This document shows, one piece after another, positions 2,531-31,443 of a DNA stretch of 64,000 nucleotides. The notes below the pieces were generated by a model. It was not told the DNA's origin. It did not search any database and saw nothing but the letters and a program-made list of their open reading frames with translations. Source of the stretch: Aphrocallistes beatrix (lineage: Eukaryota; Porifera; Hexactinellida; Sceptrulophora; Aphrocallistidae); contig OY725501.1 in NCBI GenBank assembly GCA_963281255.1, positions 3,635,674 through 3,699,673 on the forward strand, written 5' to 3'. The position numbers and the translations under genes were made by a program. Every line of letters begins with the position of its first letter. Positions within the stretch are counted from its first letter, which is position 1.

Positions 2531-2539
2531 CTGCAACTT

Positions 2540-2858: not shown

Positions 2859-3780
2859 TTAGAAGATCTTGCCAGAATTCTGAAAGGGAAAGTCTAAAAA
2901 AAAACAAAATTAATAGACAAAAATCCAAAATCAGAAACCACAAACCTATCAATGGAGTGAGCATTGAGAGGAGAGGGAACTCTACGGGATAGATAGAAAT
3001 GTAAGGACAGCTGTTAGGAGATATCTCATCTAAGATATTCTCGTCAACAGGAATGTTTGAAAACACATCACCACCATAGTCACAAGTGAATTTTATCTCT
3101 GATAAGCGAGGCTTGATTTTACGAAGCATTTTTCTGAAATAAACCAATGAATGCAAGTCTCGTTTCTTACGCTTGGTTAAAAGTGGGATTTTGTGTGTTT
3201 CAGGTTTTGGCACAACTCTGGAGACGACGAGAGAACCAACCAGAATCGAAATGTTCTCTTTAGCTAAATTTAGAAACCAATCTTTTAAACGTTCTAAAGC
3301 TTCATCAGTTTTTTGTTCGTTGCTATTTTTAGAACATCCATCCGGATTTTTTCGATACAAGTTAGAGAAAAATAGGATCAGACGGAGGAATGATTTCGGG
3401 GATTGTGATTGGATCATTTTCATTTTTTCTAGGATCATCGCCTGACATTCGTGACAAGGACTATTCGTGATCCAAAAACAAACATCTAACACGGAATTAT
3501 TCTGAGAATAGAATGCAAGCTTTTGTGCAGTATCCTCCTCAACATTCCTCAATGCTAACACTTCACTATGTACGATCTCCTTGTTTGTATATTTCTTAGG
3601 TGTGATACTAGTATTACAGTCTGTGAGGATGACTTCTGTGTTCTGTGTGCGTAGGACCATGGATAGCCAGCAGAGAGTGGTTATCTTACAACTGCAGGTC
3701 CCCCACATCTGATGCAGTTCTGACTCATGGTACTTCTTCTCTGAGATATTCCAGGCTTGAGTAGAGTCTGTTTTCTCCAT
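2859..3780 (-). CDS. AID/APOBEC-like cytosine deaminase, cluster copy A
   Basis: ATG at 3780. Exon 1 (2946-3780) holds the full catalytic fold: a conserved Q-M-W segment (residues 24-26), an ITTLCW strand (33-38), the zinc/catalytic motif H71-S-E73, and S-P-C109-x-x-C112. These are followed by an LILFFSNLY strand and a long C-terminal half with GSLVVSRVVP and ISIYPVEFP. In zinc deaminases His and the two Cys bind Zn2+ and Glu shuttles the proton; SPCxxC after a W-containing strand is the AID/APOBEC style. Expected activity: deamination of cytosine in nucleic acid (inferred). Donor after ...TPLI at 2945 (G|GTTTGT). A T-run acceptor near 2894 would give a 52-nt intron and a short exon 2 ending at 2859, about 289 aa. 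The unspliced frame also stays open to 2851. Exon 2 is uncertain; exon 1 is firm. Confidence 0.8.
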
Positions 3781-3956
3781 TTGCGTAACTAAGAGTTGCT
3801 AGGTAGTGAAATAAGGAAGAGGAGGTAAATCAGCAGAATCAAGACCCGAGAATCAAATAAAACCTGTTTACAAAACACCTAGATGTTGAATGCACTATAG
3901 CGTAGGAACTGAAGAGTAATGAGAAATATAAATAATTTGTGAGTTAGGATATCTAT

Positions 3957-3993
3957 GCAGTGATTATATACTGTTTGCATACGCATATATAAA
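3957..3993 (-). promoter_or_regulatory. Conserved upstream block of deaminase copies A and D
   Basis: A block of about 35 nt lying about 180 bp upstream of the copy A start. It is nearly identical at 13761-13796 (copy D) and 16897-16930 (the truncated relic). Read on the gene strand it contains an octamer-like TATGCAAAC followed by a TATATAA box. Conservation plus these motifs suggest the core promoter; no experimental support is visible in the sequence. Confidence 0.45.
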
Positions 3994-4289
3994 GCTTGTA
4001 CTTGTACGCATTCTGTAGTTAAGAATACGCTATATAATACAAAAAAGAACGTTCTAGAACTATCAGACAGATTCTTTTAGCAATACAGGTCGTTAGAAAT
4101 TAATGGTTGTATAGAATACAGTGGTTTTAAACTTCATGGTAGAAGTTCTAGAATAATCTCAAATGTTGGAAGCCTTTACATAAGATTCAATTTAAACAAT
4201 TCTGTAGTTAAGAATACGCTATAGGAAAGATGCATGCAAAAAAGAACTTTCTAGAACCATCAGACATATTATTTTAACAATACAGATGC
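3994..4289. repeat. Two copies of an interspersed repeat
   Basis: The segment beginning ATTCTGTAGTTAAGAATACG occurs at about 4010 and again at about 4198. Each is followed by a stretch with AGAAC(G/T)TTCTAGAAC and a run into AATACAG. A third related copy is at about 20466-20620 downstream of deaminase G. Its class is unknown. Confidence 0.5.
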
Positions 4290-4583
4290 CCTATAGGCAC
4301 CTACCATCTGATTTGGTCATGAAATGTTCCTTAGGCCAGCACTTAAGCGAGCGAAGTGTGCTTCTTATAAATTCGTCGATCATTTAAAAGGTATAAAAAT
4401 TATCTAAGGTAGTCTATTTTAGTATAAATATTATACGATAGTATAATTTTAACCAAACACGTTTGCACAAGTGGATTAAATTAGTTCTGATTTGAAGATC
4501 GGTCGAAGTGCGTTTCCGATCGAAACGGATTCGGTACATCTCGCTAGATGCTACCACAATCGAAGTCCCCAAAAAGTAGAAAT
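4290..4583 (-). pseudogene. Relic of a deaminase 3' end plus one arm of the large inverted repeat
   Basis: 4290-4533 is a diverged copy of the right arm of the inverted repeat found at 10085-10519. 4534-4583 matches the second exon of deaminase copy C (10570-10619), including its splice-proximal bases. No exon 1 is present next to it. This shows that the association of deaminase exon 2 with this repeat predates duplication of the cluster units. Confidence 0.55.
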
Positions 4584-7130
4584 TCATTATACTTACATCA
4601 GCAGCTCAAGGGATTACCTATACAATTTGAGAAGCGATTTATAATTATTTTGATATATGCAAAACTATTCTCGTCTATGCTGTAAGACTAGTCTCAACAA
4701 ATGCAAAATAAAGTTGAACTTTACCAATAGTTATTCAGTATTTCATTTAAACTTCAAGAATATAACAACAAAACAACAAATAAGACTCTACAAAATATAA
4801 AAAAGGGAATTAAAGAATCGTTACACAGATAGAGTCATTGCTTGTGTTGAATATAGTCCACTATCTCATCTATGATCTAGAAGAAGTGGTGTGGATAAGG
4901 TGCAACGTTACAATAAAACTAGCAAAGTTTTAATGCAGCGCGCAGAAATTATGAATCAATACTTTTTTGAAGAAATAGACAATCCATTTTCAATAAGAGG
5001 AATTTAATTGAGATTAAATATGTTCTTCTACACTCAATAAAGTAAAATGTTTCAAATTTTTTTTCAACACTTTACCGACTATATACTGTCAACTTTTAAA
5101 ATACAAGTTTGTTAGTTTTGTCCACTGATAATTTGATAATCACGGAAAATAACAAAGGTATTCTAACCTAACTTTCCATTTGTCACATCAAGAATAATAC
5201 ATATCATGGAAGTAGATCTTTAACCACATATACTTGTATATATAAAAGGTGTGAAAATTTGTTTGCCATTCTTTTGCAGGTGTGAAAATTTCGCCTAATT
5301 AGATCTTCGAACTTAATCGCAAACCCATCATTTAAAACCTACATGTAAATTTTCATATCTCTACGACTTACCAGTTCTTCAATCAATTCGAACAAACAAA
5401 CAAACAAACAAACAAAAATAAAAAATAAAATATACTACTTACCAAGAGGTAGTGGCTTTCCTCAAAAATAGGACTACGATCTCCTAAATAACATCAAAAC
5501 TCTAATAATTAATTTGAATTTCAGGTTGCGAATGTTTAACCGGTAGAGATACGACGTTACACATCAAATATTTGTTTCGTAAAAGTGTGACATTAAGAAA
5601 TGTCTGTTTTTTACAGGAAACTATAAAGTTTCCCTGAGAAAAAGGAAAATATAAACCGGTTTTAGCCTTCGCAACCTGATTTCAAGATTATGCACCTTCA
5701 ATGGTAGTCCACTGAACCTAACAGGAGAGAATTCAAATTAAAGGTCTGTTGTTTGGCCATTTTTAAATAAAATACACTGGAAATGGGTTTCTATTTATTG
5801 GCCTAAACAGAATGTTTTGAAAAAAGGAAAATTGCTCAGTAAACAACGTTCTACGTTACTATGAAAATTTTGTATTTAAACTTGAGCTAATTGACACATA
5901 TTATCAAGTCTCTAATCTCCGAGAATAGTTTCCATTGATGCATTACCTCCTAAATTTAACTACTACCTTATACCAAAATATTTGAAGAGGGGTGCAGCAA
6001 TTGTAGGAGTTTACATGCGCAAAAAGCTGAAGAAGCTCGAACTCGGATGAGTGAGTAACTGAATGCTTAATTCAGGAGATAAGCGATCTCTGATTTGAAA
6101 GTCTGATATAACTTCCAACAAGTAAGCAAATAAGGTTTGCTTTACAGTCAGAACCCGGACCTATCCGGTGTCCCTGTTTCGTAGGTTCCATTGTCCCTGG
6201 ATTAACAGGAGTCAGGAAGCGTAAAGGTCCCGTACTTTCCTCAGGACTCACCACCATGCAGAAGCCTCGCATTTCTGCAAAAGCATGGTCACTGCGTCCA
6301 GAGCTAAAAGCTTGGAGGCGGCCATTGGGGGAATAGGTCACATTCCGCCCTGGTACCTAGTACCAACTGGTCGTTGGCATGGATGGGTCAGAAAGATGAC
6401 AGCCAAATGGGGTTGGTTCTAACCCAACAACCCTCTAGGTTGGAGGCTATTGTTCATCCTTATGTCTGCCTGCGGCGGATTTAAACAGGAGCCACCCGAA
6501 CATTTTTAAAAAAAATGTCAAACTCCTCAAGCTTCACGCAGCAATCAGGAGAATAAGGGCTTGGGTGGCAAGGTATCCGCCAATGGACAGGCCCGCATGC
6601 GGGTGAGACCCAAGTAGGTGCCCAGTCCTCCACTGGAACTCCATCGTGGGAGGCATCAGGGAGAGGATGGCGGGAAAGGCTCGCGTTACGGTCAGAACCG
6701 AACCTCCTTCCGTTGTTCCTGTTCCCTGGGTTTCATGACCCCTAACTGGCAAAGGAAGGCATGAAGCGACCGCACTTTCTGCAATTTTTTGACTGAGCTT
6801 TGCATTATGCAAAAAGCATGGCGGTCACGTCCTGAGGAGCAAGCAGGTCGAGTGCTCGAGGGACCACAAGCCAGGTTCTGCACTGGCTTCCATAGAGCAG
6901 ACGGGATATAAGGGTGTCGCCCGGACATGTATCTAGACAAATGTCTACAACGACGAGCTCCTCCCGCTTCTTGCTCAGGGTCGACCTCTACACTCCACGA
7001 AGAGTGGAATAGTCGAAAGAAACAGAGAATAAACAGGTAGAACAAAAATAAGATTGTTATTTCTGACCTGAGTCCATTCATCAGAATACTTTCCTTATCA
7101 TCTCTGCACAGCTTGTTGCTAGGTGATACC
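4584..7130. other. Intergenic, repeats only
   Basis: No exon is recognised. Visible items: a short unit at 4820-4840 (TTACACAGATAGAGTCATTG) that recurs at 8586 and 12030 in the same place relative to the neighbouring deaminase genes; an AAAC tract at about 5395-5416; and two related GC-rich copies at about 6140-6345 and 6680-6905, sharing an AAAAGCATGG...GTCACTGCGTCC-like stretch, probably an old interspersed element. Open frames inside these copies look like chance. Confidence 0.45.
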
Positions 7131-8062
7131 TCAATTGCACGCCCCAAAATAGAAGCCTAAAGGAAAGAAAATTAGTAAACAACAATAAAAATTAGCAACA
7201 AACCTATCAATGGAGTGAGCATTGAGAGGAGAGGGAACTCTACGGGATAGATAGAAATGTACGGACAATTGTTAGGAGATATCTCATCTAGGATATTCTC
7301 GTCAACAGGAATGTTTGAAAACACATCACCATTATAGTCACAAGTGAAGTTTATCTCTGATAAGTGAGGCCTCAATTTACGAAGCATTTTTCTGAAATAA
7401 ACCAATGAATGCAAGTCTTTTTTCTTACGAACAGTTAAACGCGAGACTTTGCTAACTTTGACCGTTTCAGGTTCCGGTACAACTCTGGAGACGACGAGAG
7501 AACCAACCAGAATCGAAATGTTCTCTTTAGCTAAATTTAGAAACCAATCTTTTAAACTTTCTAAAGCTTCATCAGTTTTTTCTTGCTCACTGCTATTTTT
7601 AGAACATCCATCCTTACTACCTCGGTACAAGTTAGAGAAAAATAGGATCAGACGGAGGAATGATTTCGGGGACTGTGATTGGGCCAATTTCATTTTTTCT
7701 AGGATCATCGCCTGACATTCGTGACAAGGACTATTCGTGATCCAGCAGCAAAAATCTAACACGGAATTATTCTGAGAATAAAATGCAAGCTTTTGTGCAA
7801 CCTCCTCCTCAACATTCCTCAATGCCTGCACTTCACTATGTACGATCTCCTTGTTGGGAGATTTCTTAGGTGTGATACTAGTATTACAGTCTGTGAGGAT
7901 GAGTTCTGTGTTCTGTGTGCGTAGGACCATGGATAGCCAGCAGAGAGTGGTTATCCTACAACTGCAGGTCCCCCACATCTGATGCAGTTCTGACTCATCG
8001 TACTTCTTCTCTGAGATATTCCAAGTTCGGACAGAATCAGTCATATGCATTTTACTCAACAT
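7131..8062 (-). CDS. AID/APOBEC-like cytosine deaminase, cluster copy B
   Basis: ATG at 8062, with further in-frame Met codons at residues 5 and 7. Exon 1 (7204-8062) encodes 286 residues with QMW (28-30), ITTLCW (37-42), H75-S-E77 and S-P-C113-x-x-C116, all catalytic residues intact. It is very close to copies A and C. The donor is at 7203 (G|GTTTGT); the acceptor CTTTAG|GC at 7157 would give a 47-nt intron. Exon 2 then reads only nine codons to a stop at 7131. Aligned with copy C exon 2, this looks like a one-base deletion in a T run that shifts the frame, so the tail is truncated compared with C. The catalytic part should be unaffected. Nuclear or cytosolic location cannot be read; no signal peptide is evident. 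Confidence 0.8.
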
Positions 8063-8147
8063 TACTATTGGCTAGTGAATCGAGATAATCTAAATAGTAA
8101 ATAAGTTTTATACTGTGGCTCGATAAACTGGGGATGCTGCATTAGTT

Positions 8148-8495
8148 CGAATTTTGATGTTGTGTCGTTAGTTCGAATTTTATGAACTGTCATTAGTTCG
8201 AATGGATTTTCAATGTACTGTCATTGAGTGCCATTTTGGGAGATATTTATAAGAATTGAGGGAAAAGCAGCATTTCTGCTGAGAATATGAGAAAATGTAG
8301 AATGAAAACTTTTAATAATTGCATTGGATGAATTTCGTACCTCAAAAGTACGTTGTTAACTTCGATGTTAACAACAAATAATAAGTATCATATATTCGTA
8401 GTAATGACAGAACCATTTAAAATCCATTCGAACTAATGACAGTATATGGAAAATCCATTCGAACTAATAACAACATCAAAATTCTAAATAATGCA
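8148..8495. repeat. Foldback (inverted-repeat) element
   Basis: The left part contains repeated ATTAGTTCGAATTTTGATG-type words and the right part their reverse complements (CATCAAAATTC, CCATTCGAACTAATGACAG), giving long imperfect arms around an AT-rich centre. It is non-coding, probably a MITE. Target duplications were not resolved. Confidence 0.5.
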
Positions 8496-9432
8496 TGCGC
8501 CTCAATAAACTAAACATTTCGCCAAAGAGTATTACATAACATCAAAATATCAATACAAATATCAAAAATGTGAATACAAGGAATTGTTACACAGTTAGAG
8601 TCATTGCTTTAAGGGAAGAGGTTGCATCGAAATCAGTTACTCGTTCATAATCTAGAAGACAGGATTTTAACGTTAAAACATAACAAGCTATATAAGATGC
8701 ACTCAGTTAGATTAGCATGAATTTTATGAAAATGAATATCTGCCATTTGCTTAAAATTGTTTGTAGGAAGAAAATATGGATATAAAAGTGTGAAAATGTT
8801 CTTGCCAACTTCTTTGTATATGTTAATGATTACTCTCCTATTCAAAAGCTGTTTTAGGAGGACAAACCCAACACTGACTAATTTATCTCTGAAATACTTT
8901 ATAAAACTATTATGATTCCTAAATATGGCGCTAATTCGAAAGTTCTTTACAATTACAGATCCTTCATGCTTACCAAGAGGTAATGGGCATTTGTGCTTAA
9001 AGATGGCACAGTCATCTCCTATAGAAAACTCGTGATCAATCTAATTATTCCATAATTAGATTATTGCATTGAAAAAAACTCGAAATTAGTCTTAACTATT
9101 CGTAACCTGGATTTAGAATCAAACACTTATCAATGGACGTCCCTCTTAACTCTTTGCAATTTTTATATAAATATTTCCCAATACAAGGCTATATAAACTC
9201 TACAATCTTCTAATATAACCCCTGACTTTTTGTTTAAATGGGGGAACCAGGGACATCCATTGATATGTGTATTATGTATTCCTAAATAAAATATTTGAAG
9301 AGGGCTGGAATCGTAGAGGTAATTGCAACTGCTGTATAGTATTAGGTCCATGGTTAAAGAAATAACCAACAAAAGATCCTGATTAAGAAGCATCGACAGA
9401 GAGTGCTGATCTGAAGGTCATTCCAATTTGAA
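8496..9432. other. Intergenic, no gene seen
   Basis: AT-rich sequence between the foldback element and the large palindromes. It holds the shared 20-nt unit at 8586 but no recognisable exon. Confidence 0.4.
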
Positions 9433-9636
9433 GATTAGTTTCAGATGAATGAGGAGTCATCCTGCATCTCCTTTGGGATCTGTCGGGGCCTAGTTTTCAA
9501 CCTGCAAAGAAGGTATATTGACAGGGTTAATGAACCCATTAACCCTGTCAATATACCTTCTTTGCAGGTTGAAAACTAGGCCCCGACAGATCCCGAAGGA
9601 GATGCAGGATGACTCCTCATTCATCTGAAACTAATC
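9433..9636. repeat. Near-perfect palindrome with 100-bp arms
   Basis: The sequence from 9433 to about 9532 is repeated in reverse complement from about 9537 to 9636, with a centre of a few bases and only a rare mismatch (for example CTTTGGG against CCCGAAG). Such a fresh palindrome is expected from a foldback transposon or a replication-fork inversion. Confidence 0.75.
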
Positions 9637-9642
9637 TAGCTG

Positions 9643-10519
9643 CACTTATAATCCGCTTCAAACCGAAACGCATTTCGACCGATTTTCGAATCAGAACTAG
9701 TAATTTAGTCGATTTGTCCAAACGTATTTGGTTAAAATTACACTGTCATAGAATTTTTATACTTGAAATACTACCACTAATCATCGCACATTTTGTTCGT
9801 TTTCTTGCATGAATAGACATATCAGGTTAAACTCGATGATGATTCCTTTTATTTAATAACAGCCATTTAATTTGTTTAGTAGCATTGTACTTTGTTTATT
9901 TAATCCTATTCACTCAACAATGACGTCAACAATCTGAGCTACAACCACTGTCTTACCGTGACTAGATAAGTTTTAAATTGTTCGACGAGTTTATAAGAAG
10001 CACACTTCGCTCGCTTAAGTTGGACTGATGAACATTTCATGCCCAAATCAGATGCCTCATAGGAGCCTAGTGAAACCAAATAATGCTTGGTTTCACTAGG
10101 CTCCTATGGGGCATCTGATTTGGGCATGAAATGTTCATCAGCCCAACTTAAGCGAGCGAAGTGTGCTTCTTATAAACTCGTCGATCAATTTAAAAGCTAT
10201 CTAATCACGGTAAGACAGTGGTTGTAGCTCAGATTGTTGACATCATTGTTGAGTGAATAGGATTAAATAAACAAAGTACAATGCTACTAAACAAATTAAA
10301 TTCCTGTTTTTTAATAAAAGAAGTCATCATCAAGTTTAACCTGATATGTCTATTCATGCAAGAAAACGAACAAAATGTGCGATGATTAGTGGTAGTATTT
10401 CAAGTATAAAAATTCTATGACGTGTAATTTTAACCAAATACGTTTGGACAAATCGACTAAATTAGTTCTGATTCGAAAATTGGTCGAAGTGCGTTTCGGT
10501 TTGAAGCGGATTATAAGTG
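9643..10519. mobile_element. Large inverted repeat, arms about 435 bp
   Basis: The left arm (9643 to about 10079) and right arm (about 10087 to 10519) are reverse complements with scattered mismatches and small indels, around a 7-nt centre near 10083. Both outer ends carry CACTTATAATCCGC. One diverged arm also occurs at 4290-4533. The right end overlaps the last exon of deaminase copy C. It is a non-autonomous foldback element or an inverted duplication; no transposase frame is inside. Confidence 0.7.
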
Positions 10520-11523
10520 TAGCAACAAACCTGGTGTCGATTATTGTAAAAAATTGTCCAAATATTTCTGTACATCTCGCTAGTTGCTACCACAATCGCA
10601 AGTCCCAAAAAGTAGAAATCTAAAAGAAGAAAACTCAGACAAAAATCTAAAATTAGAAACAAACCTATCATTGGAGTGAGCATTGAGAGGAGAGGGAACT
10701 CTACGGGATAGATAGAAATGTAAGGACAATTGTTAGGAGATATCTCATCTAGGATGTTCTCGTCGATAGGAATGTTTGAAAACACATCACCACTATAGTC
10801 ACAAGTGAATTTTATCTCTGATAAGCGAGGCTTGATTTTATGAAGCATTTTTCTGAAATAAACCAATGAATGCAAGTCTTTTTTCTTACGAACAGTTAAA
10901 CGCGAGACTTTGTTAACTTTGATCGTTTCAGGTTCCGGTACAACTCTGGAGACGACGAGAGAACCAACCAGAATCGAAATATTCTCTTTGGCTAAATTTA
11001 GAAACCAATATTTTAAACTTTCTAAAGCTTCATCAGTTTTTTCTTGCTCACTGCTATTTTTAGAACATCCATCCTTACTACCTCGGTACAAGTTAGAGAA
11101 AAATAGGATCAGACGGAGGTATGATTTCGGGGATTGTGATTGGATCGATTTCATTTTTTCTAGGATCATCGCTTGACATTCGTGACAAGGACTATTCGTG
11201 ATCCAGCAGCAAAAATCTAACACGGAATTATTCTGAGAATAGAATGCAAGCTTTTGTGCAGTATTCTCCTCAACATTCCTCAATGCCAACACTTCACTAT
11301 GTACGATCTCCTTGTTGGGAGATTTCTTAGGTGTGATACTAGTATTACAGTCTGTGAGGATGAGTTCTGTGTTCTGTGTGCGTAGGATCATGGATAGCCA
11401 GCAGAGAGTGGTTATCCTACAACTGCAGGTCCCCCACATCTGATGCAGTTCTGACTCTCCGTACTTCTTCTCTGAAATATTCCAGAATTGAGTAGAGTCT
11501 GTTTTCTGTATTTCACTCGACAT
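10462..11523 (-). CDS. AID/APOBEC-like cytosine deaminase, cluster copy C
   Basis: ATG at 11523. Exon 1 (10665-11523) encodes 286 residues with QMW (28-30), ITTLCW, H75-S-E77 and S-P-C113-x-x-C116 intact, then LILFFSNLYRG, GSLVVSRVVPEPE, a lysine-rich linker and ISIYPVEFP. The donor is at 10664 (G|GTTTGT), the acceptor TTTTAG|AT at 10620. The intron is only 45 nt and divisible by three, so spliced (338 aa) and unspliced (353 aa) forms share one frame. Exon 2 starts DFYFLGLAIVV, a hydrophobic stretch. Its last 20 or so residues are encoded by the right arm of the large inverted repeat, so the C-terminus is partly transposon-derived. Start and catalytic core are firm; the use of exon 2 is inferred. 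Confidence 0.8.
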   Translation of the reverse strand: MSSEIQKTDSTQFWNISEKKYGESELHQMWGTCSCRITTLCWLSMILRTQNTELILTDCNTSITPKKSPNKEIVHSEVLALRNVEENTAQKLAFYSQNNSVLDFCCWITNSPCHECQAMILEKMKSIQSQSPKSYLRLILFFSNLYRGSKDGCSKNSSEQEKTDEALESLKYWFLNLAKENISILVGSLVVSRVVPEPETIKVNKVSRLTVRKKKDLHSLVYFRKMLHKIKPRLSEIKFTCDYSGDVFSNIPIDENILDEISPNNCPYISIYPVEFPLLSMLTPMIGLFLILDFCLSFLLLDFYFLGLAIVVATSEMYRNIWTIFYNNRHQVCCYTYNPLQTETHFDQFSNQN

Positions 11524-12638
11524 AACTAGTGGCTAATGAATCAAGAGGATCTAAGTAGATATAATAATCAGTTGTGTAGATTTTATACAGACACGTACAT
11601 GTTATAAATACGAATTACAACCCGTAAGTCTTGATGATTTTATCCTATTTTAAAAGTACGAGTATATTAACTACATTAGTAAATATTGACTAGTTTTCCC
11701 TTTAATTAGAACAAATATTATGACTTTCTCTGGTCCTTCCACTTTATAGTATGGTATCACCTGTGGACACCTCTACACTCAACGACTCAAACGATATATC
11801 AGTGACCTTGCAATAACTATATCGGTAGTTCATTGGAAACTACGCATTCAATTTAATTAAGAAGCTAAGCACTTTATAAAACGATGGGTTGATATTCTGC
11901 CGTACAAAACCATTCTAATCAATGCTGTAAGATGGAAAATAAGTTTCACTTTGTTAGTCAGTTATAAATGGAACTTGAAAAATATTACAACAAAATACAA
12001 AATATACAAAAGTTTGAAAAGAAAGAAATGTTACACAGATAGAGTCATTGGCCGTGTTTAGAAAGGAGTTGCATGCAGTCCACTAACTCATTTACAATCT
12101 AGAAGACAATGTACAAGTAGGATAACGTGTAGTGCAATGTTATGTATGTACATCTTAGCAATTATTAATTAATAATGATCTGGGGTCCATTCTATTTATA
12201 GCATAGACCCCACATTTCTAAGATTTTCCCGATCAAAATGACTTAACCGGAAATGAGTTAGCAAAATTCAAAGTACATTATTGATGTTAATGACCAATGC
12301 AGTATAAATTCTGAGCTGTTAACTACCGTCAGAAATTATGAATCACAATTCAAGCTTAAAACTGTACATTAAAGCGATGATAAGTAAAAAGTAGAATGCA
12401 GCGGGTTTCATAATATTTATGAAAGAGAGTTACATTTCGCGATCAGATTTGTAACTCTTCATTCAAAAAGTCAAATACATTTCGTTATTAAGAAAAATGT
12501 CTAGATATTAGGTAAGTTGAGTTCGTTATTGATATCTAAAAGTTTAGAATAAGCATAATATTTATTATCTCATACTCACCAAGAGGAAGTGGAAATCTTC
12601 GACATTTAAGTCAGTCAGTTCATAGCAAAATAATAAGG
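11524..12638. other. Intergenic, no gene seen
   Basis: AT-rich 5' flank of copy C and 3' flank of copy D. It includes the shared unit at 12030-12050 and following bases also present near 4820 and 8586, evidence that whole gene-plus-flank units were duplicated. Confidence 0.4.
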
Positions 12639-13592
12639 TTAATACATTCTGACCTTAGTCGATCCATTAGAATTGTCATACAATGTTAGGAGGTCTTTCA
12701 ATTGCACACACCCAAAAATAGAACCTAAAAGAAAAAAAAGTTAGCAAACAAAGATCTAAAGAAAGAAGATACAAACCTATCGATGGAGTGAGCTTTGAGA
12801 GTATAGGGAACTCTACGGGATAGATAGAAATGAAAGGACAATTGTTAGGAGATATCTCATCTAGGATTTTCTTATCAGTAGGATCGTGTGAAAACACTTT
12901 ACTATGGTTACTAGTGAATTTCATCTTTGATAAGTGAGGCCTGATTTTATGAAGAATTTTTCTGACATAGCCCAATGATTTCAAGTCTCGATTCTTACGC
13001 TTGGTAAGCGGCTTTTTGTTCGGTTTAGGTTCCGGTACAACTTTGGAGACGATGAGAGAACCAACCAGAACCGAAATATTCTCTTTGGCTAAATTTAGAA
13101 ACCAATTTTTTAAACGTTCTAAAGTTTCAGGTTCGTTGCTGCTATTTTTAGAATATCCATATGGATATTTACAATACAAATTAGAGAAAAATAGAATCAG
13201 ACGGAGGTATGATTTCGGGGATTGTGATTGGATCGATTTCATTTTTTCTAGGATCATCGCCTGACATTCGTGACAAGGACTATTCGTGATCCAAAAACAA
13301 ACATCTAACACGGAATTATTCTGAGAATAGGACGCAAGCTTTTGTGCAACCTCCTCTTCAACATTCCTCAATGCCTGCACTTCCGTACGATCTCCTTGTT
13401 GGGAGATTTCTTAGGTGTGATACTAGTATTACAGTCTGTGAGGATGACTTCTGTGTTCTGTGTGCGTAGGACCATGGATAACCAGCAGAGAGTGGTTATC
13501 CCACTGCAGGTCCCCCACATCTGATGCAGTTCTGAATCATTGTACTTTTCCTCTGAAATATTCCAGGCTTGAGTAGAGTCTGTTTTCTCCAT
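12639..13592 (-). pseudogene. AID/APOBEC-like deaminase copy D, frameshifted at the catalytic motif
   Basis: The start matching the other copies is ATG at 13592 (MEKTDSTQAW...). The frame runs to ...NKEIV and then breaks at about 13383. Compared with copy B, four bases are missing exactly where the His-Ser-Glu codons should be, destroying the HxE motif and shifting the frame. Downstream, the frame starting QALRNVEEE continues with SPCHECQ and the rest of the fold to the usual donor near 12778. A two-codon in-frame deletion (CSCRITT to CSGITT) is also present. A candidate acceptor at 12725 leads to a different exon 2 frame ending at 12639; the unspliced frame ends at 12676. As it stands it cannot make an active enzyme. 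Confidence 0.8.
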
Positions 13593-13760
13593 TTGTGTAA
13601 CTAAGTAGTGGCTAGGTAGTGAAATAATCAAGAGGAGGTAATCCACAGAATCGAAATAAACCTGTTTACAAGATGGTTAGATGGTAAACAAGAATGTACT
13701 ATAGCCTAATAGGAACTAAAGTTATGAGAAATATCAATAATTGTGAGTTAGGATATCTTG

Positions 13761-13796
13761 GCAGTGATTATATACTGTTTGCATAGGCATATATAA
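13761..13796 (-). promoter_or_regulatory. Upstream block of copy D, same as at 3957-3993
   Basis: Octamer-like TATGCAAAC preceded on the opposite side by TATATAA when read on the gene strand. It lies about 170 bp before the copy D start. See the copy A entry for the comparison. Confidence 0.4.
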
Positions 13797-14198
13797 AACT
13801 GCTGACAAAGTTTGTGAATCCGTAGTCAAAGGGAATATTGCATAGTTGGTGGTAAAATGCGTTGGTGTGGAGAGCAAAGTTTAATATTGCGTAAACTATA
13901 TATATTCCAGTAAATATCTAAATTTAGATAAGAACAACATAAAAGAGGAATTGGTGTTTGGATAGAAATACGCATCGCAATAGTACGTTAAAAAATCCCT
14001 GGCCTAGTTTAACTGTGACTAATGATTTGTATATTAAAACATCCCACGAATAAATGGTCTTAATCTTATTATATTTGGCTGTGTAATAATTGTTTCCTTA
14101 ATTTTGTCTCAATCTCTGAATCCCTGTTGGAATTGTAGGGGAAATTACCTTTGCAACTGCAACATTCCTATTTCCTAGGGCAATTATATTAAACAATG

Positions 14199-14346
14199 AA
14201 CTTGATATTAAATATAGCTTACATTTCGTTGTATTATGTCAGAGGATTTCACAGAACTGCTTCAAAGATGGTTTCTCTGCTCTCGAAGTAGTATCAATAG
14301 CCAGAATGCGTAAGTTCTATTCTCAAATTTTCTCTTTATTAATTGC
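14199..14346 (+). promoter_or_regulatory. Conserved upstream block of the E/H class of deaminases
   Basis: The segment from AACTTGATATTAAATATAGC to TTCTATTCTCAAATTT recurs at 21308-21435 directly before gene H and at 25254-25390 before the deletion pseudogene. The shared core is GCTCTCGAAGTAGT, followed by an A-T-rich GTTCTATTCTA. In H it lies about 40-160 bp before the ATG. In E it has been pushed about 920 bp upstream by repeat insertion. Probably the promoter of this subfamily. Confidence 0.45.
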
Positions 14347-14370
14347 TATATCGAGTAACACTCATTTATC

Positions 14371-14641
14371 ACAAGCGCGGCTGGCGGATACTTTGTGTCC
14401 GCCGGAGGCGCCCTTCGGGCGCCTGTGGTCACCATTGATTAATTATATGGGAGATAACATCTCTAAATACTACGTCTGCCCTACTATTATAATCGATATC
14501 GCACGAAAAATCATCAAAATTATCAACTTTTAAAATTTTTGATGAGTAATGATGACGTCATAACAAAGTGATAAGTCATCATTTTTTTATTATAGTTGCA
14601 TCATATGTGAGGTATATTATTTTACAGATTTTCAATTCGTT

Positions 14642-14684
<43 letters not shown>

Positions 14685-15260
14685 AGCGCGCTTCGCTTGC
14701 TTGCGCTGCGCGGCTGGCGGACACTTTGTATCCGCCAGAGGCTCCCTTCGGTCGCCTCGAGGTGACATTGGTAAATTATAAGGGAGATATCATCTCTAAA
14801 TATGTCCATCTTAGTTTTAAAATCGATATCTCACGAAAAATCACCAAATTTGTCAATTTTTAAAATTTTGATGTAATGATGACGTCATAACAAAGTGATG
14901 AGTCATCATTTTTTGATGATAGTTGTATCATATGTGAGGTATGTTAGTATACAGATTCTATTAAAATTTTAGCCTTCTATCTCCTATAATGGCTGAGTTA
15001 TGCCCGAATAACTGTGTTGCTTAACTTTTAAAAATGTGACAATGACGTCATAATTCCATGATGAGTCGACATTTTGCTCTGAGCTCAGAACTTACTGGAG
15101 CCATAGCCAAAAGACTCCCACATGCCAAAAATTAGCTTTCTATGACCGGCAGTTTCTTCAATCAATTCGTTACAGAGATATATATATATATATAGATTAA
15201 TCGAGTTTTAATACATAGTAAGGATATATAAATAAATAAATATACATTAATCGAGTTTTA
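14371..15260. repeat. Repeat block inserted between promoter and gene E
   Basis: Two tandem diverged copies of a 270-300 bp unit (about 14371-14640 and 14685-14960), each starting with a GC-rich GGCTGGCGGA(C/T)ACTTTGT...CCGCC stretch and including GATGACGTCATAACAAAGTGAT. A (TA)n microsatellite at 14648-14682 lies between them. A further partial copy lies near 15000-15080. A 25-nt direct repeat (ATTAATCGAGTTTTAATA...GTAAGGAT) at about 15196 and 15246 abuts the gene E start. Confidence 0.6.
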
Positions 15261-15269
15261 ATAGTAAGG

Positions 15270-16356
15270 ATGGCACAGCGATTACAGCCTGGCGAACCTC
15301 CTCCTTGGATCAGAGGATCCATAGAATATACCGACTTTGATCGAAACCAGATGTGGCTGACAGAGAGCAGAATAACTACCACTTGCTGGTTCTATTTGGC
15401 GGTGTGGAAGCAAGGAGAATACTTCATCCTTGAAAAATGTAAAGTAACGCCCACTAAATCAAAGCATGCGGAACAGATAGTACTGGATTTGATGGAGCAA
15501 AGACTAAAGGAAAATCTTCTTTTCTTCGAGGATGATCCCAATGCAGTCTTAGATGTTATCTTCTGGATGAACAATAGTCCATGCAAAAGCTGCCAATCGG
15601 AAATAAATTCCAGGCTACAAATATTCAAGACGATTCTACAAAAGACTCAGTTCCGATTCATCTTATTCTTCTCCTCCTTTTATAAGAAACCTGACACTAT
15701 CGAAAAGTGCCTCGACAGACTGAATCAATTTTTTGAGAATTTATTCATTCTCGATCTTATAGTAATCGCAGGCCTCTTACTGGTAACTAGGATGGTACCC
15801 AAACCAAATGGGAAAGATGTTGGCGCATATTCTGAAAGGGAACAGAATAATCTAGAGATATTCCGAGAACTCTGTAAAAAGAGGGAAGCCCAGAAAATCA
15901 ATTATCACCACGACTACACCATAACCGTCTCAGATAAAATCGATAATGAAGAGATCGATGAAAAATCTTTCCTTCAAATGAAATCTTTCAAACTCCCACA
16001 CTTCACAATTTGCCGTTCCGATAAACTACACCTTGCACAACTGACTCCCAAATTTGGTAAGAACTACAAATTTATTATTTCAAAAATAATTTTAAATAAA
16101 CACTATAGAGCAGAATTTGCTTATTTATCTGATTATAGGTACAGACAATCTCGACGAAGAGCAATACTCTGAAGATTCTCAAGAAGTGGACAGTAACGAA
16201 GTGCAATACTCCGAAGATTGTGAAGAAGTGGACAGAAACGAAGTGCAATACTCCGAAGATTGTGAAGAAGTGGACAGAAATGAAGTGCAAGAAAGTGTCG
16301 GACAGGAAGACGAGGGAATACCTCCAACTCTTCTTCCCACACTGCCTTCTCCTTAG
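15270..16356 (+). CDS. AID/APOBEC-like cytosine deaminase, cluster copy E
   Basis: ATG at 15270. Exon 1 (15270-16056) has a Pro-rich N-terminus, QMW (27-29), RITTTCW (34-40), H66-A-E68 and S-P-C105-x-x-C108, then FRFILFFSSFYKKP, a helix, and a strand GLLLVTRMVPKP. It ends KLHLAQLTPKF. Donor G|GTAAGA at 16057 and acceptor TATAG|GT at 16138 give an 82-nt intron. Exon 2 (16139-16356) encodes an acidic tail made of three 14-residue units (S-E-D-x-x-E-V-D-x-N-E-V-Q), then PPTLLPTLPSP. Total 334 aa. Catalytic residues are intact. It is closely related to copy H; the 42-nt unit is expanded here relative to the single unit in H. Unlike H, the sequence diverges right after the stop codon and the 3' hairpin is absent. 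Confidence 0.85.
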
Positions 16357-16647
16357 GCCAGTACTGGGTGCTTAGGTTTTCTTATGCTAGCTTATCCATT
16401 GTTTTAACTCTTTTAAAGCTATAGTAGTTATTATTTCACCATTTAAATTGTTCTCTCATCGAATGTTCTGACTTTAATTAAAACCTTAAGATGACTTGCC
16501 ACTTATACATTTTCAATTTCAATTCACTTTCAATTCAACATTCCTAGCCAAAGTATTAATGCTATAGTCCAGATTGCGTAATATTAAATTCCTATACCGA
16601 GTATAAAATATGTGCACAAAAATAACTCAACTAGTTTGATTGTAATC
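16357..16647. other. Intergenic, no gene seen
   Basis: AT-rich 3' flank of copy E. No hairpin or coding stretch. Confidence 0.4.
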
Positions 16648-19192: not shown

Positions 19193-20050
19193 ATGGCAGA
19201 ATATATTCCAACAAGAGAAGTTACTCCTAAAACCAATGAAGTCATTAAATACAGCAATTTTGAAAGTAGACAAATGTGGGGGATGGGGGAAAAGATAACC
19301 ACCATCTGTCGTTATTCTTTGGTAGTAAGAAGGAATGGAAATGAAACTCTCCTTGATAAAGGAAAAACTAGTCCCAATAAATTGAAACATGCTGAAATAA
19401 TAGCAATGGAGAAAATGAAGAAAACATTAGTTAGAAAACGTTCTCTCAACGCTAGCAGTTTGATAATAGAACTAATATTCTGGATCAATAATTCTCCTTG
19501 TGAAGAATGCCAGTATCAAATTGTTCGTGAGTTTCAACAGTTAAAGAAGCTTCTACCGACAGTAAAGTTCCGTTTCATTCTATTCTTTTCTTCTTTTTAT
19601 AAAAAGCCTAATAGATATGAGACATGCTTAGAGAGTCTAAATCATTTTTCCGAAATTTTGTTTAAAAATGATGTACAGGTTACCATGGGTCTGATATTAG
19701 TTACTTGGATGGCACCTAAACCAAAAGGGAGAATTAAAGGAATTCCACCTCGGAAAAGGCAAGATAGGACATTAACTTTGTTTAGAAATCTCTACAAACA
19801 ATGCAAAGAAATCGTGACAAGATATAAATATAAATATACCATTATACCCTCGCATTCGATCTTAGAAAAAGAAGTAAAAAACAAAAATTTTCTTAAAAAG
19901 AAATCCTCTAAAAATCCACATTTTTCCATATGCCCTTCAGACATCCTGGACTTAGATGAACTAAAACTGATATTGAGTAAGTATTCTCAATATAACTTTT
20001 TCCCAAAAATAAAGAACATTCGCAAACAAATCAAGAACAAGAAATCCTGA
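19193..20050 (+). CDS. AID/APOBEC-like cytosine deaminase, cluster copy G
   Basis: The first ATG in frame is 19193. The protein has 285 residues: QMWGMGEKITTICR (27-40), H66-A-E68 and S-P-C103-x-x-C106, then FRFILFFSSFYKKP, GLILVTWMAPKP and FSICPSD. All catalytic residues are intact. At the point where E, F and H splice, G has GA|GTAAGT, a strong donor, but the frame stays open for 24 further codons rich in Lys and Arg (FFPKIKNIRKQIKNKKS). A spliced form would need an acceptor downstream; ATGTAG near 20094 is possible and would give only a few codons. So the product has either a basic, NLS-like tail or a very short one. It is closely related to copy I. Confidence 0.85.
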   Translation: MAEYIPTREVTPKTNEVIKYSNFESRQMWGMGEKITTICRYSLVVRRNGNETLLDKGKTSPNKLKHAEIIAMEKMKKTLVRKRSLNASSLIIELIFWINNSPCEECQYQIVREFQQLKKLLPTVKFRFILFFSSFYKKPNRYETCLESLNHFSEILFKNDVQVTMGLILVTWMAPKPKGRIKGIPPRKRQDRTLTLFRNLYKQCKEIVTRYKYKYTIIPSHSILEKEVKNKNFLKKKSSKNPHFSICPSDILDLDELKLILSKYSQYNFFPKIKNIRKQIKNKKS

Positions 20051-21470: not shown

Positions 21471-22479
21471 ATGACATGGCTGTTACAGCCAGGCGAACCT
21501 CCTCCTTGGATCAGAGGATCCATAGAATACACCGACTTTGATCGAAACCAGATGTGGCTGACAGCGAGCAGAATAACTACCACTTGCTGGTTCTATTTGG
21601 TGCCGCAGACGAAAGAAAAACATTTCATCCTTGTAAAAGGTAAAGTAACGCCCACTAAAGATCAGCATGCGGAACATATAGTTCTGGATTTTATGGAGGA
21701 AAGTCTGAAGTCTGAGGAAAATCTTCTTTTCTTCAAGCATAATCCCACTGCAGTATTAGATGTTATTTTCTGGATGAACAATAGTCCATGCAAAAGCTGC
21801 CAATCGAAAATCTTTTCCAAGCTACAAATATTCAAGACGATTCTGCAAAAGACTCAGTTCCGATTCATCATATTATTCTCTTCTTTTTATAAGAAGTTTG
21901 CTGACAGTTCATGCCTCGACAGACTGAATGAATTTTTTGAGAAATTATTCACTCTCGATCTCATAGTAATCGCAGGCCTCTTACCGGTAACTAGGATGGT
22001 ACCCAAACCAAATGGGAAAGATGTTAGTGCATATTCTAAAAGGGAACAGAATAATCTAGAGATATTCCGAGAACTCTTAAAGAAGCGGAAAGACCAGAAA
22101 ATCAATTATCACCACGATTACACCATAACAGTCTCAGACGAAATCGATAATGAAGAGATCGAAACGAAATATTTACTTCAAATGAAATCTTTCAAACTCC
22201 CACACTTCTCAATTTGCCGTTCCGACAAACTACACCTTGCACAACTGACTCCCAAATTTGGTAAGAACTACAAATCTATTATTTCAAAAATAATTTTAAA
22301 TACACACTATAGAGCAGAACTTAATGCTTATTTATTTGATTATAGGTACGGACAATCTTAACGAAGAGCAAGAACCTGAAGATTGTGAAGAAGTGGACAG
22401 AAATGAAGTACAAGAAAGTGTCGGACAGGAAGACGAGGGAATACCTCCAACTCTTCTTCCCACACTGCCTTCTACTTAA
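21471..22479 (+). CDS. AID/APOBEC-like cytosine deaminase, cluster copy H
   Basis: ATG at 21471. Exon 1 (21471-22260): QMW (27-29), RITTTCW (34-40), H66-A-E68, S-P-C107-x-x-C110, FRFIILFSSFYKK, GLLPVTRMVPKP and FSICRSDKLHLAQLTPKF. Donor G|GTAAGA at 22261, acceptor TATAG|GT at 22345 (85-nt intron). Exon 2 (22346-22479) encodes an acidic tail with one 14-residue unit and the ending PPTLLPTLPST. Total 307 aa. The near identity to E points to a recent duplication; the two differ by small in-frame indels around residues 74 and 80 and by the number of tail units. The stop codon is followed after 19 nt by a perfect hairpin. Confidence 0.85.
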
Positions 22480-22566: not shown

Positions 22567-22597
22567 TCCTCTACTTCAGACACAGCTTAGCTCAGAA

Positions 22598-25253: not shown

Positions 25254-25675
25254 ACTTGTTACTACTTGTAAATATAGCTTACATTTCACTGTAGTTGGAT
25301 CATAGATGGTTTCTCGCTGCTCTCGTGGTATTCACAGCTAGAATACGCGAACATAACGTTCTATTCTAAAAATTTCTTCCTTTTGATTACTTCATACGTA
25401 CTTCTCAATTTGCCGTCCCGGCAAACTACATCTTGCACAACTGACTCCGAAATTTGGTAAGAGCTACATATCTATTATTTCAAAAATAATTTTAAATACT
25501 AACTACAGAGCAGAACTTTATGCTTATTTATTTGATTATAGGTACAGACAATCTCAACGAAGAGCAAGACCCTGAAGATTGTGAAGAAGTAGACAGTAAT
25601 GAAGTGCAAGAAAGTGTCGGACAGGAAGACGAGGAAATACCTCCAACTCTTCTTCCCACACTGCCTTCTACCTAA
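25254..25675 (+). pseudogene. Deletion pseudogene of an E/H-type deaminase
   Basis: 25254-25390 is the conserved promoter block. At about 25400 it is joined directly to the last 57 or so bases of exon 1 (FSICR...LHLAQLTPKF in frame), followed by the intron (25457-25541, donor and acceptor intact) and a complete exon 2 (25542-25675) with the acidic tail. About 730 bp, including the start codon, HxE and PCxxC, are missing. It keeps the same 3' flank and hairpin as gene H. Confidence 0.8.
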
Positions 25676-25694
25676 TGTGATCTCGAGCGGAGGG

Positions 25695-25762
25695 TTATAT
25701 ATGAGCTAAGCTGTGTCTGAAGTAAATCATTTTACTTCAGACACAGCTTAGCTCATATATAA
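25695..25762 (+). repeat. Perfect 32-bp hairpin, second copy
   Basis: Arms 25695-25726 and 25731-25762, loop TCAT, identical in design to 22499-22566 and placed at the same distance from the stop codon. Its survival without mismatches in a pseudogene argues for recent duplication or for selection on the hairpin itself. Confidence 0.8.
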
Positions 25763-26501: not shown

Positions 26502-27362
26502 ATGGCAGAAAAGATGCCAAAGAGAAAAGTTTTTCCGAATAACAGGGGTGCCATAAAATATAATGACTATGAAAGCAGACAAATGCAGGGGATAGGGGAA
26601 AAAGTAACTACCATATGCAGCTATTATTTGGTATTGAGAGATAAAGAAAATAATGAAAGAGAAACTCTTGATAAAGGGAAAACAAGAGCCAATAGATTGA
26701 AACATGCTGAAATAATAGCAATAGAGAAAATGAAGAAAAAATATGTCAAAACACGTCCTCTCTACGCTAGCAGTTTGATAGTAGAACTAATATTCTGGAT
26801 CAATAATTCTCCTTGTGAAGAATGCCAGTATCAAATTGTTCGTGAGTTTCAACAGTTAAAGAAGCTTCTACCGACAGCAAAGTTTCATTTTATTCTTTTT
26901 TTTTCTTTTTTTTATAAAAAACCTCACGGATTCAAAACATGCTTAAGGGATCTAAAGATTTTTTGCAATAATTTGTTCACAAATAATATACAAATTACTA
27001 TAGGTCTGAAATTAGTTACTAGAATGGCACCAAAACCAAAAGGGAGAATTAAAGGAATTCCACCTTGGAAGAAGCAAGATAGGACATTAACTTGGTTTAG
27101 AAATCTCTACCAACAATGTAAAGAGAATGTGACAAACTACACATCTGAATATACCATTATACCCTCACATCCGATCTTTATAAGAAACAAAAACTTTCTT
27201 AAAAAGAGATCAAATCCACATTTCTCCATATGCCCCTCAGACAACCTGGACTTAGATGATCTAAAGCTGACATTGAGTAAGTATTCTCAATATATTTTTT
27301 TCCCAAAAATAAAAAAGATACGGAAAAAATTCAAGAAAAAGATTCAGTCAGACACAACTTAG
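26502..27362 (+). CDS. AID/APOBEC-like cytosine deaminase, cluster copy I
   Basis: The first ATG in frame is 26502. The protein has 286 residues: RQMQGIGEKVTTICSYYLV (27-45; the usual Trp of the QMW motif is Gln), H68-A-E70, S-P-C105-x-x-C108, FHFILFFSFFYKKP, GLKLVTRMAPKP and FSICPSD. Catalytic residues are intact. As in G, the splice position carries GA|GTAAGT but the frame remains open into a basic tail (KIKKIRKKFKKKIQSDTT). The bases encoding the last residues and the following flank (TCAGACACAACTTAGCT) resemble the repeat unit of the 3' hairpins, so the tail may have arisen by reading into that element. It pairs most closely with G and is A-rich in codon use. Confidence 0.85.
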   Translation: MAEKMPKRKVFPNNRGAIKYNDYESRQMQGIGEKVTTICSYYLVLRDKENNERETLDKGKTRANRLKHAEIIAIEKMKKKYVKTRPLYASSLIVELIFWINNSPCEECQYQIVREFQQLKKLLPTAKFHFILFFSFFYKKPHGFKTCLRDLKIFCNNLFTNNIQITIGLKLVTRMAPKPKGRIKGIPPWKKQDRTLTWFRNLYQQCKENVTNYTSEYTIIPSHPIFIRNKNFLKKRSNPHFSICPSDNLDLDDLKLTLSKYSQYIFFPKIKKIRKKFKKKIQSDTT

Positions 27363-28345: not shown

Positions 28346-28513
28346 AGGGGTAAGAGTGGAAGAGAATTGGATATAGTAGATGGTAGTTACGTTAAGTTCT
28401 GTTTGGTGTCATGTGTGTGTGTGTGTGTGTGATGAGTAAGGCAGTGCGGCTATCCTCCTGATTAGCTATAATTGGCATAGGTTAGGTTTGTATATGCGTG
28501 ATTTCTCCTCCTC

Positions 28514-28781
28514 TTAGCAGTAATCCTCCCCTTGCTCTTCTTCTTCTTCTTGAAGAGGACGAGCTATACCTATTTCCAGAAATATACCTTGTAATATTTG
28601 AATCGATGCGTTATATATATATCTATGGTTGTAACCACGAATATGGATAAAATGGCTTACCATTGGAAAGAGATGGTTGAGGTGAATCATAGAATTCAGT
28701 GGGTTCCACTGAGGAACATAATTCCGTCTCAATCCTCTCCATCTCTTCCAGACAAGAGAGGGTGTTGCTCTCATCTGCCAT
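28514..28781 (-). CDS. Small two-exon protein K2, function unknown
   Basis: ATG at 28781 (MADESNTLSCLEEME...). Exon 1 (28661-28781) ends at CAATG|GTAAGC; exon 2 (28514-28569) follows ATAG|GTATAG and ends at TAA, giving 58 aa and a 91-nt intron. The tail is strongly acidic (LQEEEEEQGED). It is a paralog of K1, with conserved splice positions and the TEF-x-D...PQPS pattern. It is divergently arranged with gene J (845 bp between start codons), so the two may share a bidirectional promoter. No known family was recognised. It could be a regulatory microprotein or a decayed fragment; conservation between the copies favours a real gene. Confidence 0.6.
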
Positions 28782-29626
28782 CGTAGCTGTCTTTAGCACT
28801 AAACGGACTACAAACAGAATTGTAGGAACTTATAATTAATCACTTTAGATAACAGGTTCGATTTGATTCCTATTGCCAACTTGATAGATTATGTAAATAT
28901 TAAGTTTTTGATAAGCAAAAGAATGAATTTTACATAAATATCTGACTAATATCCAGTCTCACCTTCATTTATATACTATCGTAAAACTCTATACGACTAA
29001 CGCTAGTGGCTACTCGAGAATATTCTAGAAGGTTCATTGCGTTTTAATCCCAACTCAATCCAATACATAGAGAGTAAGGGCAAAGCCTTTAAATTCCTTT
29101 GGACGACGAAAGGAATTTATTATTATATGTATATGTGGTTATAGTTCCAGTGGCATTTAGAGAATATTCTAGAAGCTTTAATCTAATTGTATTCTCAAAC
29201 TCGATTCAATACGTACATGTGAGCAAAAGCTAAGCCATAAAATCCTCAAAAAAGGAAATGTTCCATTATGCCAAGGTGGATGATAATTGTGTTTGTCCGA
29301 ATTGATAAAAAAGTCGTAATGAGAATTGGTATGTAGGTGTCTAATCAATTTCGATCTAAACGAAACTTTAACACCTCTGGAAAAAAAAAATGTCTACACA
29401 TTTCTATGCATTATAACGGCTCCAATCTCACAACAGTCAACATTGTGTTCAATGCAACCAAACACGGGAAGCACTCATGCATACGAAAAATATATTTCAG
29501 AAAGTGTATTCACTATTCATTGAACCAAAGTACCATAAGAAAATATGAATACATAGAATTAGTTGCATTATGCATAAATCTTTTCAATATTAACTTAGAG
29601 ATTATGAACGTGAGTGTTAGGTAGGA
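28782..29626. promoter_or_regulatory. Divergent K2-J intergenic region
   Basis: It separates two start codons on opposite strands and is conserved as a block at 24365-25200. No specific site was identified beyond an AT-rich composition and repeated (T)TAGAGAATATTCTAGAAG words, which are heat-shock-element-like (inverted GAA/TTC: GAATATTCTAGAAG). That resemblance is only suggestive. Confidence 0.35.
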
Positions 29627-31443
29627 ATGGAATATACTCGAGAAGAGAGGTGTGAATTCTGGAAAATAAATGGAATTAGAACTCTAGTTAGGAGTCAGAT
29701 CATCCTGATTACTGAAGGAAGTGAGAGAGAATTGGCATCCGACCATTTCACAGTTGACACAGCCAACCAATCAGATTTCATTAAAATCGTCCACTCACTT
29801 ATGTCCGAAAACGTCATAGACAAATACCTCGCAATGGTAACAACGGAGTCTACCATTGAGTACCGACTGTGTATGAATAATTTCCCACATGCCATTCTCC
29901 AGGACCGAATCTCGGATGCGATGATGGAGCTTAGTTATGTATTCAAGTTGGCTAAGATTAGACTCACTCTACTTTTCGCCAACTCCTCCCACATGATTGT
30001 GAAGCGGCTATCCGATTGGGTTAGAGAGTTAAGAACTTCTAATTTTAGAGTCTTAATCGGTCCCGTTTTAGTCACACGGATTATTCGTCCACCTGATGAC
30101 ATCACGAAAGAAATGCAGCAAGAGAGAATGGAGGAGGACAGTAGACTTTTGAGGAAACTTTGGGCTGCAATGGTGTGCGTTTCAAGAACACTGAGTTCTG
30201 AGAAAGTTATTTTCCTGTGTAGATATAATGGAGAGGATTATTTTCCTTCATCAGTGAGTGATGTGTTTCCAGAGTCAAGAATGGATCAGTTTAAGTTAAT
30301 TACTAACATGTCTATATCGATATTGTCAGACAGTTTTAGTGTAGGGAACTTAACACATAAATTAGTGATCGGTTTCCTTCCTTTCTGTATGGCATTCAAG
30401 CTTAAAAGAAATAAATCGGATGCATTCTCAACAAATCTAATTCTAGAACATTCCCTCACCAAATATGTAGAAGAGAACGCAGCGTTTCAAAAGGTTAACC
30501 AAACTGTAACTGAGCTTTGCCTCGAACTCAGGAAAACAAGACTGCTAATTCGAAGAGTTAAACACGTCATTTTTATTGTATTAGAAAATTCAAAGTTGGC
30601 TAGAGATCGAGTTACGCTCGTAGTGCAAGAAATGAACCGGAAACCAGAAATGCTCAAAGGTGTGAAAGGGATTCTGAAAGGTGTTGAAAATCTGGTGAAA
30701 ATGCAAATCATTCCTAGGCAAATCTCCATGGAAACACACAAGAATGCAGAATATGCATTACATAAAGTTAACCAATCATGTATCGAACTGGACCACATCG
30801 TTATGGAACTAAACTCTGACATCGGGAAATACACTAAATATAGATTCAAGCTAGGAAGTTTGATGGATATTCTCACGAAAATTAATCAAAACTTTGAAGG
30901 CAGTGATTTGTTGCTAATTTTAGAAAAACTGGACTATTTCGGGGTACTCTCCAGGAGTTACGGGACCTGTGTGCAGGTATTCACAGATGAAATAGACTCA
31001 AAAGAAACTCCATTGGCTGGTAGAGATCTGACAGAATTGGAGAGAATGTTGAAACGAATTTCAAACGAAAATAAGTGGATTGCTTCGCAACTGAAACAAG
31101 AACCAAATTATAAAATGGAACAGAAACACGAGTTAGACGAAATGTTACGAAAGAATAAAATTCTACAAAAGTCCTACGAAAAGGAAATCGAAGATGCAAG
31201 GGGTCTAACTCCAAAAGGGGAGCTTGGAAACTTGATTGAATTCAGTCTGCGCTTAAAGTCTGAAATTGGGAGAGACATAACCACAATGGAGAGTACACCA
31301 ATTAATGAAGCGAAAAGTAACCTCGTTATTCCACTGTCAAAAATAACCATCAAGATTTCCACATACTTAGAGCTAGTACTAAACGCCAGGGAAGATTCTC
31401 CAAAAATGCTAACTGAATTCGCCACAAAACTAGAACAGATTGA
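29627..31443 (+). CDS. Catalytically dead deaminase-like protein J with a long helical C-terminus (3' end in gap)
   Basis: ATG at 29627; open to the gap, about 605 residues. Residues 1-250 follow the deaminases motif by motif: EFW at 10-12 for QMW; KIVH56-S-L58 where the others have IVH-S-E; CMNNFPH88-A-I-L91 where the others have WxNNSPC-x-x-C; then RLTLLFANSS for FRFILFFSSF, GPVLVTRIIRPP for GLLLVTRMVPKP, and SISILSD for FSICRSD. Thus the catalytic Glu and both zinc Cys are lost and the enzyme must be inactive. There is no intron at the usual place; the frame continues for 350 residues of charged helices, with predicted coiled-coil-like spacing, after residue 258. The role is unknown: perhaps a regulatory partner or scaffold of the active paralogs. 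Anything read beyond the gap is antisense to SNX29 and not part of this gene. Confidence 0.75.

Follow-up and report, generated by a model that had tools for sequence, protein, structure and literature searches.

Relatives of the genes reported here include AID/APOBEC-like proteins of other invertebrates, for some of which activity has been measured, and the zinc site of such proteins has been defined as H[AVS]E-x(24-36)-PCxxC (PMC5956068). Passages of two papers place the family SNAD4 in sponges (PMC8201067, PMC11004436), and a passage of the latter characterizes SNADs by a signal-peptide-like leader. Our literature search on sponge AID/APOBEC-like genes found nothing beyond passing mentions of SNAD4 in review articles or papers on fish; two papers on glass sponge genomes (PMC10280926, PMC10282587) contain neither "deaminase" nor "APOBEC" in their main text. 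Here we describe an array of genes whose predicted proteins resemble AID/APOBEC, enzymes that mutate DNA or RNA in the immunity of vertebrates, in the glass sponge Aphrocallistes beatrix, within a 64,000 nt stretch of DNA (the window) on contig C15 of the genome searched (100.5 Mb, 28 contigs). We interpret the array, with a probability of roughly three in four, as an AID/APOBEC-like subfamily that has expanded in this non-bilaterian lineage and whose members deaminate cytosine in polynucleotides, a function that we infer.

Zinc Site, Profile Matches and Predicted Fold

Eight intact deaminase frames were identified in the window. They form two groups arranged head to tail: a minus-strand group of three at 2.9–11.5 kb (m1 to m3) and a plus-strand group of five at 15.3–27.4 kb (p1 to p5). 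All eight contain H[A/S]E and PCxxC with the zinc residues all kept, and the spacing from E to P is 33–35 residues in seven and 37 in p4. The array therefore has the site as defined for AID/APOBEC-like proteins, the p4 spacing being one residue beyond the published range of 24–36. The pattern H.E-x20-45-PC..C occurred eight times in the six frames of the window, every time at an intact copy, and was absent from each of 20 simulated windows (first-order Markov chain of the window). These findings bore out the first-pass annotation of this DNA, which had proposed eight intact copies, each with HxE followed about 33–37 residues later by PCxxC.

The best Pfam family belonged to the AID/APOBEC group in all eight intact copies, and p1, p3, p4 and p5 exceeded the curated cut-offs of both NAD1 (PF18778) and APOBEC_N (PF08210). 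The dCMP_cyt_deam_1 family (PF00383) stayed under its 25-bit cut-off in all intact copies (best 22.9 bits, m1) and was never the top family. A family alignment (A3) was composed of 17 of the 18 relatives found (P0008, a piece of the broken copy m4 described below, was omitted) together with p2 and m3. When the family profile was compared with PDB sequences, APOBEC-2 was the sole match at E ≤ 0.1. Pfam Inv-AAD (PF18785) had no match in this genome; a precomputed Inv-AAD label is attached to two relatives, P0003 and P0012.

Structure models were made of p1, from 9 and 19 sequences. The predicted fold has the five strands of a deaminase, the fourth and fifth being separated by a helix, which is the strand–helix order that had been anticipated. 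In each of three structure searches with these models, all 50 matches listed were AID/APOBEC proteins. No dCMP, cytidine (CDA) or tRNA deaminase chain was among them, an absence that applies to the 50 matches listed per search and is not an exclusion. Together, the profile ranking in eight of eight copies and the matches of the p1 models make the assignment to AID/APOBEC, by both fold and family, very likely, as the first-pass annotation had argued. Neither the profiles nor the structure searches gave preference to a dCMP or tRNA deaminase or to a fold other than that of deaminases, the outcome that the annotation had named as its refutation.

Gene Structure and Organization of the Array

The deaminase frames of p1 and p4 close at a conserved GT-AG intron (82 and 85 bases), after which an acidic exon 2 is open in both and in p1 has additional tandem repeat units. 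In m1 to m3 the likely intron is 45–52 bases long and T-rich (GTTTGT...TTTAG), at a position homologous to that of the p1/p4 intron. The putative exon 2 of these copies is short and poorly conserved; if left unspliced, the frame leads to a hydrophobic tail instead. The array frames encode 285–353 residues, including a conserved C-terminal extension of about 90 residues past the deaminase domain (modelled with low confidence), and inspection by eye found no hydrophobic run in the first 30 residues of the eight copies.

On the minus strand, m1 (2859–3780) has exon 1 at 3780–2946, a probable 52-base intron at 2945–2894 and exon 2 to 2859; its frame, if unspliced, spans 2854–3780 and ends in the hydrophobic tail. 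The intact frame of m2 (7131–8062) is at 7175–8062, with exon 1 at 8062–7204, a probable 47-base intron and exon 2 to 7131, and that of m3 (10462–11523) is at 10465–11523, with exon 1 at 11523–10665, a probable 45-base intron and exon 2 to 10462. The fourth minus-type copy, m4 (12679–13592, minus strand), is broken and was read as two separate pieces: a 4-base gap relative to its paralogs has shifted the frame and removed the catalytic His, in accordance with the single frameshifted copy proposed earlier.

On the plus strand, p1 (15270–16356) has an intact frame at 15270–16169, exon 1 at 15270–16056, the 82-base intron and exon 2 to 16356; p4 (21471–22479) has an intact frame at 21471–22358, exon 1 at 21471–22260, the 85-base intron and exon 2, with its acidic tail, to 22479. 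The intact frame of p2 (17430–18398) crosses what is likely an intron and continues into an acidic tail resembling those of p1 and p4. No exon 2 was identified for the intact frames p3 (19193–20047), which has the top NAD1 score in the array, and p5 (26502–27359). Two relics are clear, the 5' end of a minus-type copy at 16647–16729 on the minus strand (DNA 87–95% identical) and the 3' end of a p1/p4-type copy at 25357–25570 on the plus strand (88–93%). The first-pass annotation had counted three; a search for the third gave just short stretches, at 4484–4583 and 9639–9697, that match the 3' tail of m3, and only two of the three were confirmed. The array shows tandem duplication with gene death.

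Several other features were observed in and around the array. Between m2 and m3 there is an inverted repeat at 9745–10421, with 335-base arms that are 96% complementary and 7 bases apart, and the G+C content is locally raised at 6001–8000, around the 3' side of m2 (0.454, versus 0.313 and 0.334 in the adjacent 2-kb windows). An uninterrupted mariner/Mos1-like transposase frame lies nearby at 34330–35433. Neighbouring genes include a Forkhead gene and two NACHT-domain (NLR-like) genes at 44494–47208 and 50118–51605, 13–20 kb from the array. Bacterial or viral origin, or contamination, was rejected, as the GT-AG introns and the Forkhead and two NACHT neighbours argue for an animal locus. Scans of viral_contigs/genome_contigs with one or two short wider-family patterns (95/110 pattern matches) confirmed no relative and were insensitive to distant kin.

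A Catalytically Dead Member

A catalytically dead relative follows on the plus strand (29627–31443), with 604 open codons at 29627–31440, up to a stretch of masked bases. The chance of 604 codons remaining open in a random frame of like composition is about 5e-20. Pfam alone detected no deaminase family in it, only weak unrelated matches; by profile comparison it is homologous to the family (hhalign probability 97%, E 1e-10), although other residues stand in place of HxE and PCxxC, and the one inactive member suggested from the initial reading was thereby verified. A deaminase-like N-terminal region of about 170–190 residues precedes a long L/E/K-rich region that, from its composition, is probably helical. 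The 200 masked bases (31444–31643) directly follow the readable frame, so that the 3' end is not readable.

A Second Cluster and Relationships among the Copies

Genome-wide protein searches with P0001, P0006 and P0003 (11, 11 and 10 matches) placed the matches on C15 inside the window only. A second AID/APOBEC-like cluster was found on contig C6 at 3746822–3763040 (loci L021 and L022), with eight motif-bearing frames, including one short copy 96% identical to the adjacent frame. The seven C6 frames scanned matched APOBEC_N at E 7.6e-6 to 3.5e-14, and the cluster is nearer to APOBEC_N than the window array is. The two clusters are only distant kin, with hhalign probabilities of 57% and 71% (E 1.1e-4 and 3.7e-5). 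One C6 frame terminates in GY-rich repeats.

In a tree of 25 proteins, including P0008 and five C6 frames, a fully supported branch separated the window array from C6. When this tree was rooted on C6, the minus copies clustered with P0009 and P0010, which come from another source (support 95/96), and the plus copies formed a second group with P0003 (92/99, slightly under the tool's full-support mark). With this rooting both types predate the split from the other source, and each multiplied later in this lineage. P0003 shares 80% identity with p1 and 78% with p4, and nothing in this genome matches it more closely; its contig is 23,760 bases long, as is that of a protein identical to m2. P0022 has no match in this genome above 77%, and its contig also carries near-identical C6 proteins. 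To judge from these sequences, copy number may vary between individuals or between close species.

The wider genome was also surveyed, with results in line with a glass sponge. Glass sponge genomes are compact with many single-exon transcripts, that of Aphrocallistes vastus being given in a passage of PMC10282587 as 80.32 Mb with 19,578 genes and 12,409 single-exon transcripts. Glass sponges are described as being without Wnt (PMC5684314, PMC10282587); in this genome Wnt and innexin had no match in searches run without a positive-control genome, and Frizzled had three matches, each within a single open frame. At least 150 SRCR matches were present (151 among the matches listed; 150 of 308 candidates scored), and large SRCR-domain arrays were observed on contig C4 at 4.93–5.82 Mb.

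Selection and Turnover

The surviving copies are under purifying selection. The ratio of nonsynonymous to synonymous substitution rates (dN/dS) was 0.50 for m1/m2, 0.47 for m1/m3, 0.58 for m2/m3, 0.57 for p1/p4 and 0.47 for p3/p5, and 0.76–0.84 for the m4 piece against m1 to m3. The nonsynonymous proportion (pN) was below the synonymous proportion (pS) at p < 0.05 in four of the five close pairs (m2/m3, p = 0.06); distant pairs were saturated at silent sites. In the loop-7 segment, pN and pS were both above the gene average in four of these pairs, and the segment was unchanged in m2/m3. Because pN and pS rise together, we make no claim of positive selection for loop 7, and none was seen in the five close pairs. 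The family had been called fast-evolving, a description that stands solely in the sense of relaxed constraint and copy turnover, with dN/dS < 1 in all five pairs.

Proposed Function and Alternative Explanations

In the intact proteins, a zinc ion would be held by the His and two Cys and the Glu would activate water, converting C to U in single-stranded DNA or RNA gripped by loops around the zinc site. APOBEC loop 7 presumably corresponds to the place of the aromatic residue that follows the LFFS strand. Based on the intact site and the activity measured for some invertebrate relatives, catalysis on single-stranded polynucleotides is likely. Since no hydrophobic leader is visible, the enzymes would act intracellularly. 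The many copies and their turnover may stem from conflict with viruses or retroelements, whose nucleic acid the enzymes would mutate and which they would thereby restrict; a defence role is plausible, given the clustering, duplication, gene death and precedent, and an antiviral or anti-transposon role is itself inferred. The dead member, with its long tail, would have no enzymatic part and would act as a regulator or a scaffold.

Several results weigh against this interpretation. As whole proteins, m1, m2, m3 and p2 (4/8) fell under every curated Pfam cut-off (best E 1.2e-5 to 1.3e-4), and m1 cleared two only if scored together with neighbours in its frame. Against PDB sequences p1 alone found no deaminase, just three unrelated matches (E 0.06–0.48), and the p1 models were of moderate confidence. 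No close pair among the five had a dN/dS > 1. Editing scars were sought at 30 retroelement loci, taken from 150 RVT_1 matches scored of 713 candidates, which gave 35 listed pairs (matches of at least 400 bases, one per pair). Among the 11 pairs that were >96% identical, a small sample with no consensus built, none was strongly skewed towards C>T or G>A in one direction, the largest imbalance in retroelement pairs being 16 versus 9 (L038/L048). The lack of an editing footprint in the retroelements compared, the purifying selection on close pairs and the single APOBEC-2 match of the family profile would all suit proteins with the AID/APOBEC-like fold doing non-immune work, as RNA editors or in a development-linked role (cf. 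APOBEC1 and APOBEC2), in an array that is ordinary birth-and-death. We nonetheless regard this as rather unlikely. The presence of two multi-copy clusters, in which some copies are broken or partial and which differ in copies from other contigs, is more typical of conflict genes, and invertebrate relatives are expressed at microbe-facing tissues, one being bacteria-induced (PMC5956068).

Duplicated metabolic dCMP/cytidine or tRNA-editing deaminases were rejected on the Pfam ranking and appear highly improbable: PF00383 does match the family, in 14 of its 19 members at E ≤ 0.1 and at best with E 8.6e-5, but an AID/APOBEC family outscored it in every intact copy and filled the matches listed in each structure search. 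It is equally hard to credit that the open frames belong to pseudogenes in decay whose similarity is a remnant. The broken copy, two relics and dead member of the array speak for this, as does the dN/dS of the m4 piece, but eight stop-free frames retain every zinc residue and pN is significantly below pS in most close pairs. An AID/APOBEC-like deaminase family remains our preferred reading.

If active, the array would represent an expanded mutator arsenal near the animal root, long before antibodies, in a retroelement-rich genome. Because the genome has a further array on another contig, the history of this defence family in early animals becomes testable, and the paralogs could be used to ask about the ancestral targets of AID/APOBEC, the origin and role of pseudo-deaminases, and whether turnover tracks invaders as in primate APOBEC3. 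We speculate, tentatively, that glass sponges have a large repertoire of AID/APOBEC restriction factors, spread over two clusters, variable in copy number and a rival to the primate APOBEC3 array, in which a dead deaminase with a helical tail is kept as a regulator, scaffold or decoy.

Comparison with Known Systems

The array resembles the SpAIDL and LaAIDL genes of sea urchin and brachiopod (Liu et al. 2018), which are likewise multi-copy, have H[AVS]E-PCxxC and combine intact and frameshifted paralogs (PMC5956068). SpAIDL1 and SpAIDL4a are shorter (193 and 194 residues) than any array frame, and activity was measured for some of these proteins (PMC5956068), that of the array being predicted from sequence. 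Human AID/APOBEC3s have 9–16% sequence identity to the p1 model in structural alignments. SNAD4 (PF18750) is of the same superfamily and probably the same phylum, and p1 (27.2 bits) and p3 (27.0 bits) reach its 27-bit cut-off. However, NAD1 scores above SNAD4 in p1, p3, p4, p5 and m1 to m3, SNAD4 is the best family for p2 only (24.1 bits, under the cut-off), and visual inspection of the first 30 residues showed no leader of the SNAD type in the array copies. The best profile matches are NAD1 ("Novel AID APOBEC clade 1") and APOBEC_N, which cover the deaminase part only (p1 residues 27–153); to these the array adds its C-terminal extension and, in p1, p4 and probably p2, the acidic exon-2 tail.
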